Shown here piece by piece: positions 27,215-49,770 of a stretch of 64,000 nt of DNA. Every line of letters begins with the position of its first letter. Positions within the stretch are counted from its first letter, which is position 1. Below the pieces are notes generated by a model, which saw only the letters and a program-made list of their open reading frames with translations, made no database searches and had not been told where the DNA came from. Source of the DNA: Archaeoglobus veneficus SNP6 (GTDB taxonomy: Archaea; Halobacteriota; Archaeoglobi; Archaeoglobales; Archaeoglobaceae); contig NC_015320.1 in the NCBI RefSeq assembly GCF_000194625.1, positions 620,001 through 684,000 on the forward strand, written 5' to 3'. The translations under genes were made by a program, and so were the position numbers.

Positions 27215-27242
27215 GTTGAAATCCGACTAATGTAGGTTGAAA
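27215..27242 (+). repeat. Solitary CRISPR-repeat-like sequence
   Basis: A 28-base sequence matches the 30-base array repeat of this window with one substitution (A to C at position 10) and one deleted base near position 23. It begins GTTGAAATCCGACTAATG and ends GGTTGAAA. No second copy lies nearby, so it is not an array. It is about 18 kb from the array and in the same orientation. It may be a relic of a lost array or a single-guide element such as the CreA type. Confidence 0.8.
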
Positions 27243-27319
27243 CGAACACGCTAAAATATAGTCAAACACAGACGTGTAAGACTTCAGACGTGAACTACAT
27301 ACATGCAACAAAAATCAAA

Positions 27320-36838: not shown

Positions 36839-39049
36839 TTAAATTATCCCTATCTCATTACAAACTTCATCCATAAGCCCAGTTTCATGACTGTACTTGA
36901 GATTTGCAATAATTATTCTGTGATCCCTATCATACCAGAAGATCTCTCCAAATTTATCCTGCAAGGCATAAAACTTCCAGTAAGGGAGCGGGACCAAGTA
37001 TCGGTGAACCTCAATTCCTCTTCCGCTTTTAATTAATCTAACGGCCTTATCTGCAAATCTTACTGGGACAACTTCCAAACCCTGAAACATTCTGTAAAAC
37101 TGGTGTTCACTTTCAGTCTTTTTAAGTGGTTGCAGATCTTCAAAAAGTTCGAGAGCAGTGAGTCTGTGCTCTTCTATTTCTTTGACAAGTTGGCTCTTTA
37201 TTTTGGAGTAGGCCTCACTTACAAGGTTGGGGATAAGCGATTCCTTGAGTTCCTGCCCATCTAAGTTCTTTAAGATTTTGATACTCTCTCTTACAACATC
37301 ATATGGTTTGTAAACGTTCTCATCTTTCTCAGAACCGTCAGTTAAAACGTAGACATCAGCTATTCTCTTTTCTTTCCATCCCTGTCGGTTTACTCTTCCA
37401 AATCGCTGAATAAGAGCATCAAGAGGTGCGGGTTCTGTCAGAATTGTCTGAAAGCTTATGTCTAGTGATACTTCAACAACCTGTGTTGCAACAACGAAAT
37501 CATAACCGTCCAAATCTCTCCTCAATTTTCTCTCAAGCTCCTCCCTATTTCCGTAGGTAAACCGGCTGTGAAGAAGCATAACGCGATAACCAAGGCTTTT
37601 AAGTCGTTTATAAACCTCAATCGCCCTATCGACAGTATTGCATGCAATTAATGCAGGTGTAAGATTTCTCTCTTTAAATTTCTCTGCAAAGCTTTGAAGG
37701 TTCTCCTCAATATTTCCCTTAACAATTTTAACGCGATGTCTTGTGAAGCGATCAGCATCCTCGCTTGGAATTTTTAGCTTCTCTGGATTCAGCAATTCAA
37801 TAAAAAGCTCCTCAATGAAGTCCGGCAGAGTTGCAGACATGATCAAAGCTTTCGTTTTGTGTTCTTTAAGTATCTCCAGCATTGCAAGAATTATTCCCAG
37901 AATATTCGGTTCATAGGCATGTATCTCATCAAAGATTAGCAAAGCATTTTTCAGCTCACTTAGCGTCATTTCGAAGAACCCAACACCGAAAAATGCCTTC
38001 ATTATCTGGAATGGCGTTGTTACTTTTAAGGGTGTGAATATTTTTTGATAGAGACTTGAGAGGCGCTTATATTCAAAATTTGAAGCGTAGAGATAGTAGG
38101 ATGATGAACTATGTAAAACACCAACTAACTCCGGACTTTTAAAATATTCCAGCATTCTGTCATACATTGCATTAATGCTTGCCTTATACGGTAAAACATA
38201 GAAAATTCTGTTGGAAACTCCTCTTTTGGTTGAATGACTATTAGCGTCTGCCCACAAAAGAGCACTCTCAGTCTTCCCATATCCAGTGGGTGCCCTGAGA
38301 AGGAGATTTCCTTTAATTTGATTTGCCTGTTTCTGCAAAGGTCTCCACTCTTCTCTTGGAATTCTGAACGCAATAACCTCGGCTATAAATGGAAGAAGTC
38401 TTACTGAGTTCTCACCTGCAGATGACAGATGATCACATGCATTCAGCAACCCTTTGAGAAAAATTAGCTCTTCTTTGTATTTTTCCCAATTTCGATCATA
38501 CCAATTTAGCAGTCCATCGAAATTATATTCCTTAATTCCCTTTTTCCAGTCATCAGAGAGCTTAAACTTTCCGATAGTCTTGCCAAAAACATAGATCTCC
38601 CAGTATGGGATTTTTGGCATGAAAACTTCTTCAACATAGTCAGAATTTTCAAGGAGTTCATCAACTCTCTCAAGATAGCTCATCCATACGAATTCTTCGG
38701 CTTTAGTTGGTACCGGAAGGTCATTCAAGTATCTGTGGTGGGTCAAAATTGCAAGAGCAATCAAATTTCTTTCTTCCTCGACACAATCCAAAAACTGTGT
38801 AAATGCTGTTGAAAGGATCTCATGTCTGTATCCCCAGATTTCTCCTTTTGCTCCAGCTCTCTGAAAACCAACTGAACACTTGCCAAGATCATGCAAAAGA
38901 ATGGAGTAAAAAAGAAGCTCCCAGAAATTTTTGCGTATTTCAGAAATCCACGGAAATGCAGTTTTTATACTCTTCATCACATTAAGAGCATCATTGACAT
39001 GGCATTCGAGAAAATCGTTGGGGTTAAACTTTGCCATGCAGACCTTCAT
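36839..39049 (-). CDS. cas3: CRISPR-associated nuclease-helicase Cas3
   Basis: Cas3 is recruited by Cascade to target DNA and degrades it with its HD nuclease while unwinding it. In this 736-residue protein the HD domain comes first (ECHVNDAL with H17, then LLHDLGK with H53-D54, later 'RHEILS' and 'THHRY'). A superfamily 2 helicase follows, with Walker A 'APTGYGKTESA' (about residues 255-265), DEIH box 'LIFDEIHAYEP' (about 365), 'SATLPDF', and the C-terminal motif 'QRFGRVNRQG'. ATG 39037 (residue 5) is an alternative start. It overlaps cas5 by 26 bases and is the last gene of the effector operon. Confidence 0.95.
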   Translation of the reverse strand: MKVCMAKFNPNDFLECHVNDALNVMKSIKTAFPWISEIRKNFWELLFYSILLHDLGKCSVGFQRAGAKGEIWGYRHEILSTAFTQFLDCVEEERNLIALAILTHHRYLNDLPVPTKAEEFVWMSYLERVDELLENSDYVEEVFMPKIPYWEIYVFGKTIGKFKLSDDWKKGIKEYNFDGLLNWYDRNWEKYKEELIFLKGLLNACDHLSSAGENSVRLLPFIAEVIAFRIPREEWRPLQKQANQIKGNLLLRAPTGYGKTESALLWADANSHSTKRGVSNRIFYVLPYKASINAMYDRMLEYFKSPELVGVLHSSSSYYLYASNFEYKRLSSLYQKIFTPLKVTTPFQIMKAFFGVGFFEMTLSELKNALLIFDEIHAYEPNILGIILAMLEILKEHKTKALIMSATLPDFIEELFIELLNPEKLKIPSEDADRFTRHRVKIVKGNIEENLQSFAEKFKERNLTPALIACNTVDRAIEVYKRLKSLGYRVMLLHSRFTYGNREELERKLRRDLDGYDFVVATQVVEVSLDISFQTILTEPAPLDALIQRFGRVNRQGWKEKRIADVYVLTDGSEKDENVYKPYDVVRESIKILKNLDGQELKESLIPNLVSEAYSKIKSQLVKEIEEHRLTALELFEDLQPLKKTESEHQFYRMFQGLEVVPVRFADKAVRLIKSGRGIEVHRYLVPLPYWKFYALQDKFGEIFWYDRDHRIIIANLKYSHETGLMDEVCNEIGII

Positions 39050-39671
39050 AGAGCCATACTCCGATGTCTATTTCGGGGTCGTAAGGAAGCTTACCATTGT
39101 ATGTTTGTCGCTTTCTTTGAGCTAAATTTCTGGGAAAAGGCAGAATAGTAAATGGTTTTACTATTTTTGCTCTTCTTGGTGTCGTTGAGTAATCAAATTC
39201 CACTGGAAGTGCATGAACCAAACCCGGCAAACCTGAAGCTATTGGAACAATAGTTCCTCCAACAGGAACATTCGCCCTTTCTTTAAGCTCGATCTTCTCT
39301 ATCTTTTCTACTGTGGCTATGTCGCTTGAACGTCCAAGCAACAATTGAAATTTCGGCTTTCTGAAGTATTTTTCCCATTCGTCAGGCAGGTAAAGATGAA
39401 GGGTGTTGTCGAACAACACCTCTCGCCTTATTACATCAGTTTCAGTTTTCCCCAAGGCATAGATTCTTTCAAGATCTACTCCTTTACCCTCACTCTTGAA
39501 GACATATCCAACGAATGGAATTTCGCTGAAAGACGCTATTTCGCCTCTTGCCGCTGACAATATGCCCTGAATTGTCGAGAGCGGAGGGACTGGTAAGGTG
39601 GGCTGATAGCCTGACTGGAATGTGGGATATCTAAAGCTTGCAGTCCAGCTTTTTATTTTTACTCGTATCAT
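39024..39671 (-). CDS. cas5: Cascade subunit Cas5 (type I-B)
   Basis: Cas5 caps the 5' handle of the crRNA in Cascade. The 215-residue protein starts with the Cas5 signature strand (MIRVKIKSWTASFRYPTF), followed by 'QPTLPVPPLSTIQGILSAA' (about 23-41), the conserved loop and helix of the RAMP fold. It lies 3 bases after cas7 and overlaps cas3, the usual order cas6-cas8-cas7-cas5-cas3 of the Tneap-like I-B group. Cas6 is present as a separate protein, so Cas5 is unlikely to process pre-crRNA here. Confidence 0.92.
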   Translation of the reverse strand: MIRVKIKSWTASFRYPTFQSGYQPTLPVPPLSTIQGILSAARGEIASFSEIPFVGYVFKSEGKGVDLERIYALGKTETDVIRREVLFDNTLHLYLPDEWEKYFRKPKFQLLLGRSSDIATVEKIEKIELKERANVPVGGTIVPIASGLPGLVHALPVEFDYSTTPRRAKIVKPFTILPFPRNLAQRKRQTYNGKLPYDPEIDIGVWLYEGLHGKV

Positions 39672-39674
39672 AGA

Positions 39675-42186
<2,512 letters not shown>

Positions 42187-42190
<4 letters not shown>

Positions 42191-42909
42191 ACCACCTTCA
42201 CCATCCCGAAACCCATGCTGTTGCGTTCCCCAAACCCCGCCTTATACCCGACTTCCAGCAATTCCTTACTCCCCTCAGCCTCAAAAACCATCAGAGAAGC
42301 GCGGTGAAACGTATTCTTGAGCTGAACCCTTACTGGCTTCGAACTTACTACCCTAACCCGAAGTTCATCATCCTTCGGCTCTCTGCCATAAAACGCCACG
42401 TATTTCTTAACCAGATTCTTCCTCAAATTCTCGTAAAACTTCGGGTTGTTGGGATACAGATCAACGGTTTTCTTCCGCCCGTTTTCTTCCACGGTGGTAA
42501 CGTTAATCGGAGACAGCGTTACGAACTTCTCTCTTTTACCCACTTCTTTCTCCTTCATCACATTTATTTCCGACACGACAAACTCCGTGCCTCCAATCTT
42601 AACTTCGGGCTTCTCCAGCAGTCCTTCGATGAGAGCGACACCAACATACTTCCGCATGGTCGAAAAGAAGAAATGGACGTTTGGGTTCAGCAGCCTCATC
42701 CTCCCGTTTTCAATCCTAAACTTTCGCCCCTCCACCATCAATCTGCTGAACGTGAAGAACTTGAACTGCGATGGAGTATGCAATTCCAGAGAAAGTTCTG
42801 GATCGGCCCTCTCAATAGCTCTGTAGATCATAGAGGCGAGATGGTATGAATGGTTAAAATCGATGTATGCAGGATCCGAGCAGGCTGTTAAACCAATCCG
42901 CAGCCGCAC
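42187..42909 (-). CDS. cas6: Pre-crRNA endonuclease Cas6
   Basis: Cas6 cuts the CRISPR transcript inside each repeat and leaves an 8-base 5' handle, predicted here to be the last 8 bases of the repeat (ATTGAAAG). The 240-residue protein has two ferredoxin-like folds and ends with the family's Gly-rich loop 'GYKAGFGERNSMGFGMVKV' (about residues 220-238). A histidine near residue 24 or 28-32 (FNHSYHLASM) is the likely catalytic residue. It heads the effector operon; the 108-base gap upstream contains an AT-rich promoter candidate (AAACTTATAAAAC on the minus strand, about 42990-43002). Confidence 0.93.
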
Positions 42910-43017
42910 ACGTTTTTTGCTGTCTTAATTTTACTTAAAATTTTTGAGTGGTGCGAAAGTGAACTAATTTTAAAAAAGCTATGTATTTTGTTTTATAAGT
43001 TTAAAATGTAAACTGAA

Positions 43018-43281
43018 TCATATTATCTCACTGCTGCAACTCTTGTCGATGCCGAGAACGTCCTTCTTTAGACTCCTGTTGCTTGGCAGGCGGTATATCA
43101 CTACCATGTCTTCACTGCCATCGATTATGTCACTAAGTCCGAGCTTCACTTCCTCCAAATCCGCCTCGCTTAGCTCACCCTCAAACACAGAGTTCTGGAT
43201 CCACGTGAGATATCGTCGCAGGAACTTCTTAACCTGGTTGACCCTCTCCACGTTCACGTCGTAGACTATGATAACGTACAC
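43018..43281 (-). CDS. cas2: Spacer-acquisition protein Cas2
   Basis: Cas2 is the central dimer of the Cas1-Cas2 integrase. The 87-residue product from GTG 43281 begins VYVIIVYDVN, the family's first strand with its acidic residue, and continues with 'RRYLTWIQNSVFEGEL' (about residues 22-37), also conserved. I prefer GTG 43281 to ATG 43302, because GCAGGTGGT lies at the right distance upstream and the protein then starts as Cas2 normally does. It follows cas1 by 38 bases. An AT-rich gap after its stop separates the adaptation genes from the effector operon. Confidence 0.93.
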   Translation of the reverse strand: MYVIIVYDVNVERVNQVKKFLRRYLTWIQNSVFEGELSEADLEEVKLGLSDIIDGSEDMVVIYRLPSNRSLKKDVLGIDKSCSSEII

Positions 43282-43319
43282 GCTACCACCTGCGTGTTTC
43301 ACAACTCATTGTCCACCCG

Positions 43320-44312
43320 CTACCACCACATAACGAAGGGAGAGTACTTTTCAACGCCAAGCAAATGTTTTGCGAGCTTGTAGCACTCGAGCCTTATGAG
43401 TCGCTGATAAGAAACGTTTCTGTTGAGCTTTCTGTGCTTTATTGTCGTGTTCAATTTATCATTGTAAGCTTTCAGGAACTTCTCCTTTCCGCTCTCGCTA
43501 AGCAGAACTCCATTGAGCTCCTCCCTGAAATCGTCATTCTTAATCACACCTTTGTTTACAAGCCCGAAAATCGTCCTGTCAACGATCAGTGGCTTGAATA
43601 TCTCCGCTATATCGAGAGCGAGACTGAATCGTCTTTCTGAGGGCTCATGAAGATATGAAATCGTTGGATTAAGCTGGGTATGGTATATTTCGGAGAGGAC
43701 AGTTGAGTAAAGCAGCGCGTTACCGAAGCTTATCATTGCATTCACCTCGTTGTGCGGCGGTCTCCTGCTTCTCCTTTCGAACTCGAAGTTTCGCAGTATC
43801 GAGTCGAAGGCTGAGTAGTATGCGTTCCTGGCGTTTGCTTCCACGCCCATTACCTCGTTCACGGTTTCTGCAGTCAGAAGGCTCTGCAGAGCATCATCAA
43901 CTTCCTTCTTCGCGTCTTCTTCTTTGTAATAGGCCAGAACTCTGGACATGTTGAGAATTGCTCCCTCAACAAAGGCCTTTGCCAGAAATAGTCTTTTCTC
44001 TTTATCGATGTAATGCTCAACCTGCCTGACGAGCACATCTCCCGAAACGAGAGTCTCTCGTGGATAAAAGCTACCAACGTAGAATCCGGAGCGGTTGAAG
44101 AAGTGAACGCACACACCTTCTTTTGCCAGTGTTGAAAGGGCTGGAGATGTGACGGTGAGAGAGCCAAGGGCGTAAATGGCGTATATCGAATTGATGGGTA
44201 TTGGTCTCTTTCCTTCCTCGTTCTCGAAGTATATCGTGTTTTCGTGCCTCCTCAGCTTCCCGTCCGAGACTATGTAGTAGTTCCTCTTCTTCAAAACCAT
44301 CACCTGCGACAC
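43320..44312 (-). CDS. cas1: CRISPR integrase Cas1 (type I-B)
   Basis: Cas1 is the metal-dependent integrase that inserts new spacers at the leader end. The 330-residue protein has an N-terminal beta domain and a helical catalytic domain. Expected metal-binding residues are E158 (GVEANARN), H222 (YLHEPSERR) and an acidic residue at D234 or E237 (LALDIAEIF). The gene begins with GTG directly after the cas4 stop; ATG 44300 is an alternative start. It forms an adaptation cassette with cas4 and cas2. Confidence 0.96.
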
Positions 44313-44819
44313 TTATGAAAAACAGAACTCAAAGTACGCGCACCTCCTACAGATTTTCTTTTTCTCCGGTTTTGGGATGCCTCCGGCAACGATTTCATCT
44401 ATTTCCTTCACGATATTCTTCAACTTCTCCTCATCCTCTCCACTGAGCTCCAGCTTGATGGTTTCTCTATGTTTTGGATACGTCAGAACAGCTCTGGCTT
44501 TAATCCCGAGGGTCTTGAGGAAGTATAGGTAGTAGAGAGTCTGGTAAACGTGAGACTCCTCCATCTTTTTGGACTTCTTCACTTCTCTTATTTCAATCAC
44601 GTCTCCCCGCTTCACCACATCTATGGCAATTGGGCCGATTTGAACATCTTTTTCGTCTCTTGAAAAGACCTCTCTGTGGATGAGCTTTCCAAGCTTAACA
44701 GCATCACTTTCTTGCTCCATCGTTACATTGTGGCTGAAAAGCCAAAGTTTCGTCTTGCAAATGAAATAATAGTTAACCTGCGTACCACGCACGTACATCT
44801 CGGAAACTTCCGAAATCAC
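44313..44819 (-). CDS. cas4: PAM-selecting nuclease Cas4
   Basis: Cas4 trims prespacers and helps to select PAM and orientation. The 168-residue protein has the iron-sulfur cysteines of the family: one near residue 21 (YFICKTKLW) and a C-terminal CRRCAYFEFC. RecB-like nuclease residues appear in 'IEIREVKKSKKMEE' and 'QTLYYLYFL' (QxxxY). The longest frame starts at GTG 44819, about 27 bases from a TATA box (GGTTATACGG, about 44841-44850), consistent with a leaderless message. ATG 44798 (MYVRGTQVNYYF) is the alternative favoured by homologues. A perfect inverted repeat lies between these two starts. Confidence 0.93.
   Translation of the reverse strand: MISEVSEMYVRGTQVNYYFICKTKLWLFSHNVTMEQESDAVKLGKLIHREVFSRDEKDVQIGPIAIDVVKRGDVIEIREVKKSKKMEESHVYQTLYYLYFLKTLGIKARAVLTYPKHRETIKLELSGEDEEKLKNIVKEIDEIVAGGIPKPEKKKICRRCAYFEFCFS
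44800..44813. promoter_or_regulatory. Inverted repeat at the start of the cas4-cas1-cas2 transcript
   Basis: The palindrome TCGGAA-AC-TTCCGA occupies 44800-44813, about 35-45 bases downstream of the cas4 TATA box and just before ATG 44798. Perfect 6-base arms with a 2-base centre are typical of a dimeric transcription-factor site. It could be an operator for the adaptation genes; no known regulator gene lies in the locus. Confidence 0.4.
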
Positions 44820-45146: not shown

Positions 45147-48100
45147 GTTGAAATCAGACTAATGTAGGATTGAAAGGAGATTTCCCCTTTCAATCCTCAT
45201 CCTCATCTATCTCCCGTTGAAATCAGACTAATGTAGGATTGAAAGCTGCGACGTATCAAGAGTCTTTCCGTTAGCCGTTTCATGTTGAAATCAGACTAAT
45301 GTAGGATTGAAAGGCACAGAAAATTGAGTGCTGGAGAGGATGCAAAAAAATGTTGAAATCAGACTAATGTAGGATTGAAAGATCGGGGAGGGAGATTAGG
45401 ATGGATATAGAGTGTCTAGTTGAAATCAGACTAATGTAGGATTGAAAGGAGTTCTTTGGCAGAGATAAGTTCAGTAAGGTTATCTCAAGTTGAAATCAGA
45501 CTAATGTAGGATTGAAAGGCGCTATTCTTTTACTTCTCGCAATGCGGTAATCAATGGTTGAAATCAGACTAATGTAGGATTGAAAGAAGCGCTTGGCTGC
45601 TTACTGCGTGGCTCAGTACTGCGCGTTGAAATCAGACTAATGTAGGATTGAAAGGAGGTGGTTAGAGACATCTTGAATAAAATGATGGGCAAGTTGAAAT
45701 CAGACTAATGTAGGATTGAAAGCTTATTGACTTCTTCAATTCTCCCTTTTAGATATAGATGTTGAAATCAGACTAATGTAGGATTGAAAGGCATAACAGA
45801 GTGCGCCCTCCGTGCCTCCCGTTCCGTGTTGAAATCAGACTAATGTAGGATTGAAAGATGGGGGAACTGGCTCGAACTCGCTGATTTCTTCGAAGAGTTG
45901 AAATCAGACTAATGTAGGATTGAAAGCAAATTAGCAAGGGCTACAACGATACCATCATACGGAGTTGAAATCAGACTAATGTAGGATTGAAAGATCAACA
46001 TCGGTCCGGGACAATATCAGTTCAAGGCGAGGTTGAAATCAGACTAATGTAGGATTGAAAGCTATGAGTACTGTAAAAGGAATTTAAATTTAAAATAGGG
46101 TTGAAATCAGACTAATGTAGGATTGAAAGTTCTAATGCCGTGAAGTATGCTCTTTTTGCTTCGGGAGGTTGAAATCAGACTAATGTAGGATTGAAAGGAT
46201 TGTGGCGGTGATTTGGTGGACTTAGGCAACAATGAGTTGAAATCAGACTAATGTAGGATTGAAAGTACTTCAGACAATACAATATCCCAATCGAACAACA
46301 CAGTTGAAATCAGACTAATGTAGGATTGAAAGACGGTGAACGTTGATCATCCTTTGATTGTCTTGCTGGTTGTTGAAATCAGACTAATGTAGGATTGAAA
46401 GTGTCCATCAAAAGGCCTAACGGAGGATGAGGTTCAAGAGTTGAAATCAGACTAATGTAGGATTGAAAGTTCCCACTTGATGATACCCTGACCTTCATTC
46501 TTTTCGAGTTGAAATCAGACTAATGTAGGATTGAAAGTTGTGGTATAATTAATAGTTCTCATCTGCCATTTTTTATGTTGAAATCAGACTAATGTAGGAT
46601 TGAAAGGCTCGCAAGGAAATGCTGAACGGAAATAGGCACACCGTTGAAATCAGACTAATGTAGGATTGAAAGACTCTTTCACCTCCTAACAGCTTTTTTC
46701 TATATACTGTCACTGGTTGAAATCAGACTAATGTAGGATTGAAAGTCTATACCACCTCAAAAAATGTTTAAGGAAGCAGAATCTGTTGAAATCAGACTAA
46801 TGTAGGATTGAAAGTTTGGGGTAACTGGCTTGAGCTTGCAGACTTCTTAGAGGTTGAAATCAGACTAATGTAGGATTGAAAGGCGAGCATGAACGGGAAC
46901 TGCACGAATCCGCGGGCTCCCGTTGAAATCAGACTAATGTAGGATTGAAAGATAGCTGCAAAAATCTTTTGCATCCCTGCAAGTCCCCTTGTTGAAATCA
47001 GACTAATGTAGGATTGAAAGGCAAATAATCTATAAACTGTCTCGCTAAGTCGAAAGCGTTGAAATCAGACTAATGTAGGATTGAAAGCTCGAGTTCCCTG
47101 CTCATCCTGCTATATCTCTCAAAAATGTTGAAATCAGACTAATGTAGGATTGAAAGAGGATTACAGCCGGAATCCTCAGCCAGCCGACGAAGTAGAGTTG
47201 AAATCAGACTAATGTAGGATTGAAAGAGATTGCCCCCCTCAGCATGGCGGGGGACATTCGCGAGTTGAAATCAGACTAATGTAGGATTGAAAGTATTGTC
47301 AACCTTTTAATTCGCTCTTTCAATGCCCTAAAGTTGAAATCAGACTAATGTAGGATTGAAAGTAGAGGAATGGGAAATTCTGGGGAAGGATGACGAAAAA
47401 GTTGAAATCAGACTAATGTAGGATTGAAAGCTAAGAAGGCTTATAGTTGAGCACAGACACTTGGATTTAGTTGAAATCAGACTAATGTAGGATTGAAAGT
47501 AGGGGGGAGGTAGATGAGGATTGAAAGAGGGAATCTCAGTTGAAATCAGACTAATGTAGGATTGAAAGGAGAAGAGCTGACGTTCACTGAAGAGGACGGA
47601 AACAACGTTGAAATCAGACTAATGTAGGATTGAAAGCTGGGGTAACTTTCCGAAGTTCAAATGCAGGCATGAACTGTTGAAATCAGACTAATGTAGGATT
47701 GAAAGGATTCTAAGTTAAAATAGATGGGTTGAATAAAAAAAGGTTGAAATCAGACTAATGTAGGATTGAAAGGGACATGGGGCAATAAGCAGCCATTCAG
47801 CCCAGAGCCATCTGTTGAAATCAGACTAATGTAGGATTGAAAGATAGAGTTCTATGTTGTAGTATGTTCCTGCAGAGAGATCGTTGAAATCAGACTAATG
47901 TAGGATTGAAAGCATGCTCTTGCTGAGCCATAGCCAAGCCCATGAAGCGGGTTGAAATCAGACTAATGTAGGATTGAAAGACGTAGATTTGACATTCTCA
48001 GCGGGCGCAACGAGGCAGGTTGAAATCAGACTAATGTAGGATTGAAAGTTACATATATCTACAAAAGCTGCACAATCTGCAGCATCGTTGAAATCAGACT

Positions 48101-49770
48101 AATGTAGGATTGAAAGAATAAGAGCGGGCGAGTATGGCGACATGAGCGAGGCAAGTTGAAATCAGACTAATGTAGGATTGAAAGCTTCGAATGGGATAAG
48201 GGCTTAGAGGATTTGGCCGAATGGGAGTTGAAATCAGACTAATGTAGGATTGAAAGCATGCTGAAAACTACATTGTCTTCAAGGGCGTTTCTTATGTTGA
48301 AATCAGACTAATGTAGGATTGAAAGAATCCTGTGACAGTGCAACGTATTACTTTACTATTCATGTTGAAATCAGACTAATGTAGGATTGAAAGGACTCTG
48401 TGTGTGAGGTGGTGGTAGAGATGGAGCAAAAGTTGAAATCAGACTAATGTAGGATTGAAAGTTTTGAGAAAATAAGACGTATAAACCTTTGTAACAATGG
48501 TTGAAATCAGACTAATGTAGGATTGAAAGAAATTCCTCGGACGGGATAAGTTCAGCAAAGTTATCGCGTTGAAATCAGACTAATGTAGGATTGAAAGGTT
48601 TGATGTGCGAATGTGGATACTCGAAGAGGTATGTTGTTGAAATCAGACTAATGTAGGATTGAAAGTTGAACCATATCTCGTTCTGAGGGAAACTCATCTG
48701 AACGTTGAAATCAGACTAATGTAGGATTGAAAGGTTCCAGCCTGTGATAATAAAAAGCACCACAGCACCGAGTTGAAATCAGACTAATGTAGGATTGAAA
48801 GACATAAATCATTATCCTGTCGAAGTTTCAGATTATTTGGTTGAAATCAGACTAATGTAGGATTGAAAGGATATACCATCAACTGAATTACCTGAATTGC
48901 CATTAACAGTTGAAATCAGACTAATGTAGGATTGAAAGGTTGCGTATGCGCCCAGATATGGTACGAACTGTTCAAAAGTTGAAATCAGACTAATGTAGGA
49001 TTGAAAGCGCTGGGACGATAATCAGACTTGTAAACGCTGATGCTACGTTGAAATCAGACTAATGTAGGATTGAAAGCGCTGATACAGCTTCAGCGGAGTC
49101 ATACGCTTAATCCTGTTGAAATCAGACTAATGTAGGATTGAAAGTTCTATTTCTCGTCCGATATCCCTACTGTAGTGTCTTAGTTGAAATCAGACTAATG
49201 TAGGATTGAAAGAATTTATTGGGCCGATGGCAACACGCCCAGCTGAGCTTGTTGAAATCAGACTAATGTAGGATTGAAAGTTTTGTCCCGCTGAGCACGT
49301 GCACGCTGCGAATGATTGGTTGAAATCAGACTAATGTAGGATTGAAAGTTCATTCTCTCTTTCAATCTCAGCAATCTTACTCATTAGTTGAAATCAGACT
49401 AATGTAGGATTGAAAGTACTTGCGGAGCTACTACGACAAATACGCCAAACTGCTCGTTGAAATCAGACTAATGTAGGATTGAAAGGTAGGGATTTCTTTA
49501 ATCCAGGTTTCGTCAATTGCTGCGTTGAAATCAGACTAATGTAGGATTGAAAGACATCTGAATCTTCGAATACCTCAATGCTGTATATGCTCGCTGTGCG
49601 TTGAAATCAGACTAATGTAGGATTGAAAGAGTACCCTTTCAAGCACAATCACGGCGATATCGTCTGCAGTTGAAATCAGACTAATGTAGGATTGAAAGCT
49701 TTGTACCTCAGCATAGCTCCCACAACACCGAGCAGCCCGGGTTGAAATCAGACTAATGTAAGATTGAGAA
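45147..49770 (+). CRISPR. Type I-B CRISPR array, 68 repeats and 67 spacers
   Basis: Repeats are 30 bases, start GTTGAAATCAG and end GTAGGATTGAAAG. Repeat-to-repeat distances are 66-76 bases, giving spacers of 36-46 bases (mostly 38). My count by position is 68 repeats, the first at 45147 and the last at 49741. The last repeat is degenerate (A for G and a disturbed 3' end), which sets transcription on the plus strand, with the leader at 44820-45146. The other repeats I inspected are identical. Three spacer pairs, 1/35, 5/50 and 11/25, look homologous to each other (see findings). Frames seen across the array are artefacts of the repeats. Confidence 0.99.

Follow-up and report, generated by a model that had tools for sequence, protein, structure and literature searches.

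Homologous spacer pairs in a type I-B CRISPR array of Archaeoglobus veneficus SNP6 probably record repeated capture from related mobile elements

The stretch of DNA that we analysed (64,000 bp, referred to here as the window) corresponds to bases 620001-684000 of the single 1,901,943-bp contig of Archaeoglobus veneficus SNP6. It contains a long CRISPR array (array A) and a complete cas operon (Table 1). In this operon Cas8b1/Cst1, Cas7/Cst2, Cas5t and Cas3 are encoded together (36839-42190, identified by NCBIfam matches above cut-off), and Cas6 as well as the adaptation genes for Cas1b, Cas2 and Cas4 are present in the same operon. Judged by this gene content, the CRISPR-Cas system to which array A belongs is of type I-B (Cst-type), is apparently complete and has adaptation genes of its own (Cas1-Cas2-Cas4). 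The array A repeat is 30 nt long and ends with ATTGAAAG. A second array elsewhere in the genome (array B, genome positions 83683-85137) holds 21 spacers and has a repeat that is nearly that of array A. Because the leader sequence of array A is similar to the leader of array B, and because the last repeat of array A (49741-49770) is degenerate, the leader can be placed to the left of array A. Spacer 1 is therefore the newest spacer, as had already been stated in a first-pass annotation of the locus. Of note, a lone CRISPR-repeat-like sequence, GTTGAAATCCGACTAATGTAGGTTGAAACG, which differs from the array repeat by a substitution and a short deletion, is located at window positions 27215-27244, 18 kb away from array A and with a tRNA-His gene ~170 bp from it.

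Table 1. Features of the CRISPR-Cas locus and of the spacers discussed in the text (window positions, unless given as genome positions).
Feature	Position	Strand	Description
Type I-B cas operon	36839-44819	-	complete; left of array A
cas3	36839-39049	-	NCBIfam match above cut-off
cas5t	39024-39671	-	NCBIfam match above cut-off
cas7/cst2	39675-40736	-	NCBIfam match above cut-off
cas8b1/cst1	40733-42190	-	NCBIfam match above cut-off
cas6	42187-42909	-	
cas2	43018-43302	-	
cas1b	43320-44312	-	
cas4	44313-44819	-	
CRISPR array A	45147-49770	+	68 repeats (last degenerate), 67 spacers; repeat GTTGAAATCAGACTAATGTAGGATTGAAAG; leader left
Inverted repeat	45166-45197	+	12-bp, perfect; AGGATTGAAAGG-8 nt-CCTTTCAATCCT, across the repeat 1/spacer 1 junction
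Spacer 1 (newest)	45177-45215	-	reverse complement: RBS-like GGGAGATAG + ATG AGG ATG AGG ATT GAA AGG GGA AAT CTC = MRMRIERGNL; handle-bearing
Spacer 5	45449-45488	+	EFFGRDKFSKVIS; homolog of spacer 50
Spacer 11	45858-45896	+	WGNWLELADFFE; homolog of spacer 25
Spacer 25	46815-46852	+	WGNWLELADFLE; homolog of spacer 11
Spacer 31	47227-47263	+	APLSMAGDIR; opposite-orientation homolog of spacer B2
Spacer 32	47294-47332		handle-bearing
Spacer 35	47500-47538	+	TAGGGGGGAGGTAG + ATG AGG ATT GAA AGA GGG AAT CTC = MRIERGNL; homolog of spacer 1, other strand; handle-bearing
Spacer 37	47637-47675	+	WGNFPKFKCRHE; match in a DNA cytosine methyltransferase gene, G029:C250
Spacer 50	48530-48567	+	KFLGRDKFSKVI; homolog of spacer 5
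Spacer 62	49349-49386		handle-bearing
Spacer B2 (array B)	genome 83780-83824		APLDMAGDVS

The first-pass annotation, whose positions for spacers 1 and 35 in the 67-spacer array were correct, had claimed that the reverse complement of spacer 1 aligns with spacer 35 over most of its length. This near-full-length similarity is real. Local alignment paired 33 bases with one 6-nt gap and 3 mismatches (score 22.5), and none of 20,000 dinucleotide shuffles specific to this pair reached that score (mean 10.9). When all 88 spacers were shuffled and every spacer was compared with every other on both strands, the maxima of the 150 resulting sets were never above 19, which was the largest value. The coding readings that had been proposed, MRMRIERGNL for spacer 1 and MRIERGNL for spacer 35, were likewise right: the 6-nt gap keeps the reading frame and consists of the two extra codons of spacer 1, and, read from the ATG, the two mismatches in the coding part each change a third codon position without altering the amino acid. 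The ribosome site upstream of the ATG, described earlier as Gly-rich, is actually G-rich (Shine-Dalgarno-like). Since the gap is in frame and the mismatches are synonymous, the spacers themselves give good support to the view that 1 and 35 represent two diverged copies of one gene start, with the reading as a gene drawing on the frame, the Shine-Dalgarno-like site and two synonymous changes over only 8 shared codons. The same observations, together with the alignment, bear out the earlier proposal that homologous gene starts, here of diverged elements, gave rise to both spacers, which lie in opposite orientation.

Three further homologous pairs, which the first-pass annotation had missed, were detected among the spacers: 11/25 (score 21), 5/50 (score 19), and 31/B2 (score 20). 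A score of 19 was reached in 1 of the 150 shuffled whole sets and a score of 20 in none. The peptides read from these pairs are WGNWLELADF[FL]E for 11/25, [EK]F[FL]GRDKFSKVI for 5/50, and APL[SD]MAGD[IV] for 31/B2. All mismatches of 11/25 (8/8) and most of those of 5/50 (5/7) fall at codon position 3. For 31/B2, with ten codons compared, this holds for only 2 of 7 mismatches, and its reading frame is less certain for that reason. The pairs 11/25 and 5/50 are each in the same orientation, and 1/35 and 31/B2 are in opposite orientation, with 31/B2 spanning the two arrays. In all, four pairs of spacers are more similar than expected by chance and have diverged like coding homologs, 31/B2 being the least clear. 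Several pairs, near-identical as well as diverged and in both orientations, were also present among 432 spacers from the arrays of other Archaeoglobi. Related spacer pairs are therefore ordinary for Archaeoglobi arrays, and the phenomenon is already known.

We considered whether spacer 1 could be an inverted and mutated copy of spacer 35 that was made in the host, either by rearrangement of the array or by re-capture of array DNA. Spacers 1 and 35 do cover nearly the same stretch (33/39 nt), and the origin of a spacer from array DNA is conceivable. However, an in-frame 6-nt indel combined with synonymous changes is the mark of gene evolution, whereas spacers residing in an array are under no codon constraint. 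In addition, the two spacers have different ends (offset by 1 and ~4-5 nt), and divergence of the coding type is also found in 11/25 and 5/50. We regard a copy made in the host as highly improbable.

The first-pass annotation had also noted that part of spacer 35, AGGATTGAAAG, equals the end of the repeat, and it had left room for either chance or a repeat-derived capture. The match, which covers the last 11 nt of the repeat, is correct for spacer 35, but it is not confined to this spacer and is found in spacer 1 (minus strand) as well. A sequence common to both spacers would be expected if they had been taken from the end of a CRISPR repeat and the adjoining DNA, through repeat-derived capture or from a virus-borne mini-array, and such an origin could also account for the presence of the 8-nt crRNA handle ATTGAAAG or its complement in 4 of the 88 spacers (expected: 0.1 from genomic 39-mers, 0.2 from shuffles). 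Upstream of the 11 nt, however, the spacers read ...GATGAGGATTGAAAG where the repeat reads ...AATGTAGGATTGAAAG. The spacer sequence thus leaves the repeat at this point and follows the reading frame conserved between spacers 1 and 35, which makes repeat-derived capture unlikely. In those arrays of relatives that were read, the repeats keep AATCAGAC..(T/A)(A/G)GGATTGAAA and not the upstream sequence of the spacers, and handle-bearing spacers occur at chance level in relatives' arrays (2/432, versus 1.4 in shuffles). We find a repeat origin hard to credit, and the sharing of AGGATTGAAAG is probably due to chance.

With regard to the handle itself, the four spacers that bear it or its complement amount to three events if 1 and 35 are counted once, and their excess, allowing for the post-hoc choice of the motif, is suggestive only. 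The sequence ATTGAAAGAGNGAAT occurs in the A. veneficus genome only within spacers 32, 35 and 62. According to folding predictions, the 12-bp inverted repeat at the start of array A would pair the 5' handle of crRNA 1 with its spacer. Pairing between 5' handle and spacer is predicted for both crRNA 1 and crRNA 62 at 37 C, and at 75 C it is predicted to be weaker for crRNA 1 and to hardly occur for crRNA 62. We attach very little weight to the idea that handle-bearing spacers are over-represented for a reason, such as handle-like sequences in invaders or self-silencing of crRNAs. If it were true, crRNA loading may for instance be disturbed by handle-like sequences that invaders of this host have close to gene starts, or a hairpin between handle and spacer may silence crRNA 1 and crRNA 62.

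Searches for the source of the spacer pairs returned no protospacer for 1/35 in IMG/VR, INPHARED, PLSDB, GTDB contigs or 59 Archaeoglobi genomes, and IMG/VR contained no match to 1/35, 11/25 or 5/50, whether as exact or as degenerate patterns. Neither 1/35 nor 11/25 has another match in the A. veneficus genome, and these pairs are therefore not self-derived. A number of candidate sites were set aside. Four IMG/VR matches to the 31/B2 pattern were taken as chance, as the proteins or reading frames concerned resembled neither one another nor archaeal elements in any visible way, and four bacterial matches among GTDB contigs were treated in the same way. Chance was also assigned to a match to 1/35 that lies internally in an endonuclease III-like protein (G016:C229) and to a match to 11/25 inside a biotin ligase-like protein (G011:C10), both proteins being named from their translations. 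A match to spacer 15 on a contig that carries an arabinofuranosidase-like gene and is not virus-like (G054:C78) is probably fortuitous, and the matches of spacer 62 in many genomes, which are stretches of 19-30 nt, probably reflect common coiled-coil codons.

A target-like site was found for spacer 37 alone. Of this spacer, 36 nt could be compared with a site in a DNA cytosine methyltransferase gene on contig G029:C250 of another Archaeoglobi genome, and 31 of these match, with CCT immediately upstream; as one diverged site, this is not a PAM determination. The virus-like contig (G029:C250:1-4262, locus L046) encodes the methyltransferase, a phage-family helicase and one protein without a Pfam match, and it may represent a tailed virus that infects Archaeoglobi. 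The methyltransferase of this contig shares 44% identity with its counterpart in Caudoviricetes sp. vir520, and a search of IMG/VR for relatives of the contig's helicase yielded none. Spacers 11, 25 and 37 each start 1-2 bases before TGG-GGN-AAC (Trp-Gly-Asn, WGN). From this shared start, the three spacers may be captures at one methyltransferase motif, with 11 and 25 taken from more distant methyltransferases.

Repeated captures at one site could go beyond random sampling if adaptation has hotspots (a PAM combined with a favoured site) or if older spacers prime the acquisition of newer ones. The same-strand pairs 11/25 and 5/50 share their register within 1 nt, which fits this possibility, as would three captures at a single site if spacer 37 indeed shares its methyltransferase site with 11/25. 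Moreover, priming was reportedly strand-independent in a study of a type I-F system, which we count in favour of priming. On the other hand, PAMs of type I systems are of the CCN type, and if this holds here, random sampling of CCN sites with 88 spacers predicts ~3 same-site pairs for a target pool of 10 kb and 0.9 for a pool of 35 kb. Chance alone would yield ~1-3 same-site pairs for a target of 10-35 kb, so no hotspot is needed. Gene starts are also not favoured, because a ribosome-binding site with a start codon is present in 7 spacers, compared with 7.8 in shuffles. The number of pairs agrees with captures drawn at random from a few small families of elements, though a modest preference may exist, and we consider a genuine hotspot or priming effect rather unlikely.

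We are therefore left with separate captures as the reading that we hold to be very likely for spacers 1 and 35. These spacers would have been acquired at different times from two related and diverged mobile elements, each time at the identical position, where a small gene begins. In type I adaptation, capture in the opposite orientation requires a PAM on the other strand, and each of the two spacers would have needed a PAM on its own strand to be inserted in its present orientation. The element would have escaped the older spacer by drift (the 6-nt insertion and the synonymous changes), after which a new spacer at the same place would presumably have become useful. That both spacers match the final 11 nt of the repeat would be a coincidence of the target sequence, and the pairs 1/35, 11/25, 5/50 and 31/B2 would together be the record of infections that recurred with related elements of one family. 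The first-pass annotation had likewise suggested that the host adapted repeatedly to one element lineage; in general terms this is upheld by the further homologous pairs, which mark it as a recurring feature of this host, but the target element is unproven, as the searches gave a PAM-flanked protospacer for neither spacer 1 nor spacer 35. If the proposed account is correct, the pairs by themselves show that A. veneficus, a hyperthermophile, has encountered several diverged members of given element families and has renewed its defence against the same genes. The conserved peptides MRIERGNL, WGNWLELADF, GRDKFSKVI and APL[SD]MAGD could then be used to identify Archaeoglobi elements in vent metagenomes.

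Several known systems can be compared with these observations. In repeated or primed acquisition by type I systems, hosts likewise carry several spacers at homologous sites on either strand; in the present case such acquisition is known from spacer-spacer homology alone, by which priming and independent naive captures are not told apart. Caudoviricetes sp. vir520, a virus with Methanofastidiosa as host, contributes a methyltransferase relative, yet it is directly matched by no spacer. Archaeoglobus veneficus pleomorphic virus 1 (AvPV1, Thalassapleoviridae) has been described as a resident provirus from strain SNP6 (PMC10919331). This virus of the same host species is, like its four relatives, matched above shuffle level by no spacer of arrays A or B. 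AvPV1 is for that reason not the target, and the lack of matches fits its reported stable coexistence with the host. Finally, no departure from the type I-B (Cst/Tneap) subtype with Cas4-Cas1-Cas2 adaptation was seen in the A. veneficus system, in which, as in that subtype, all subtype genes adjoin the array with its leader and 30-nt repeat.
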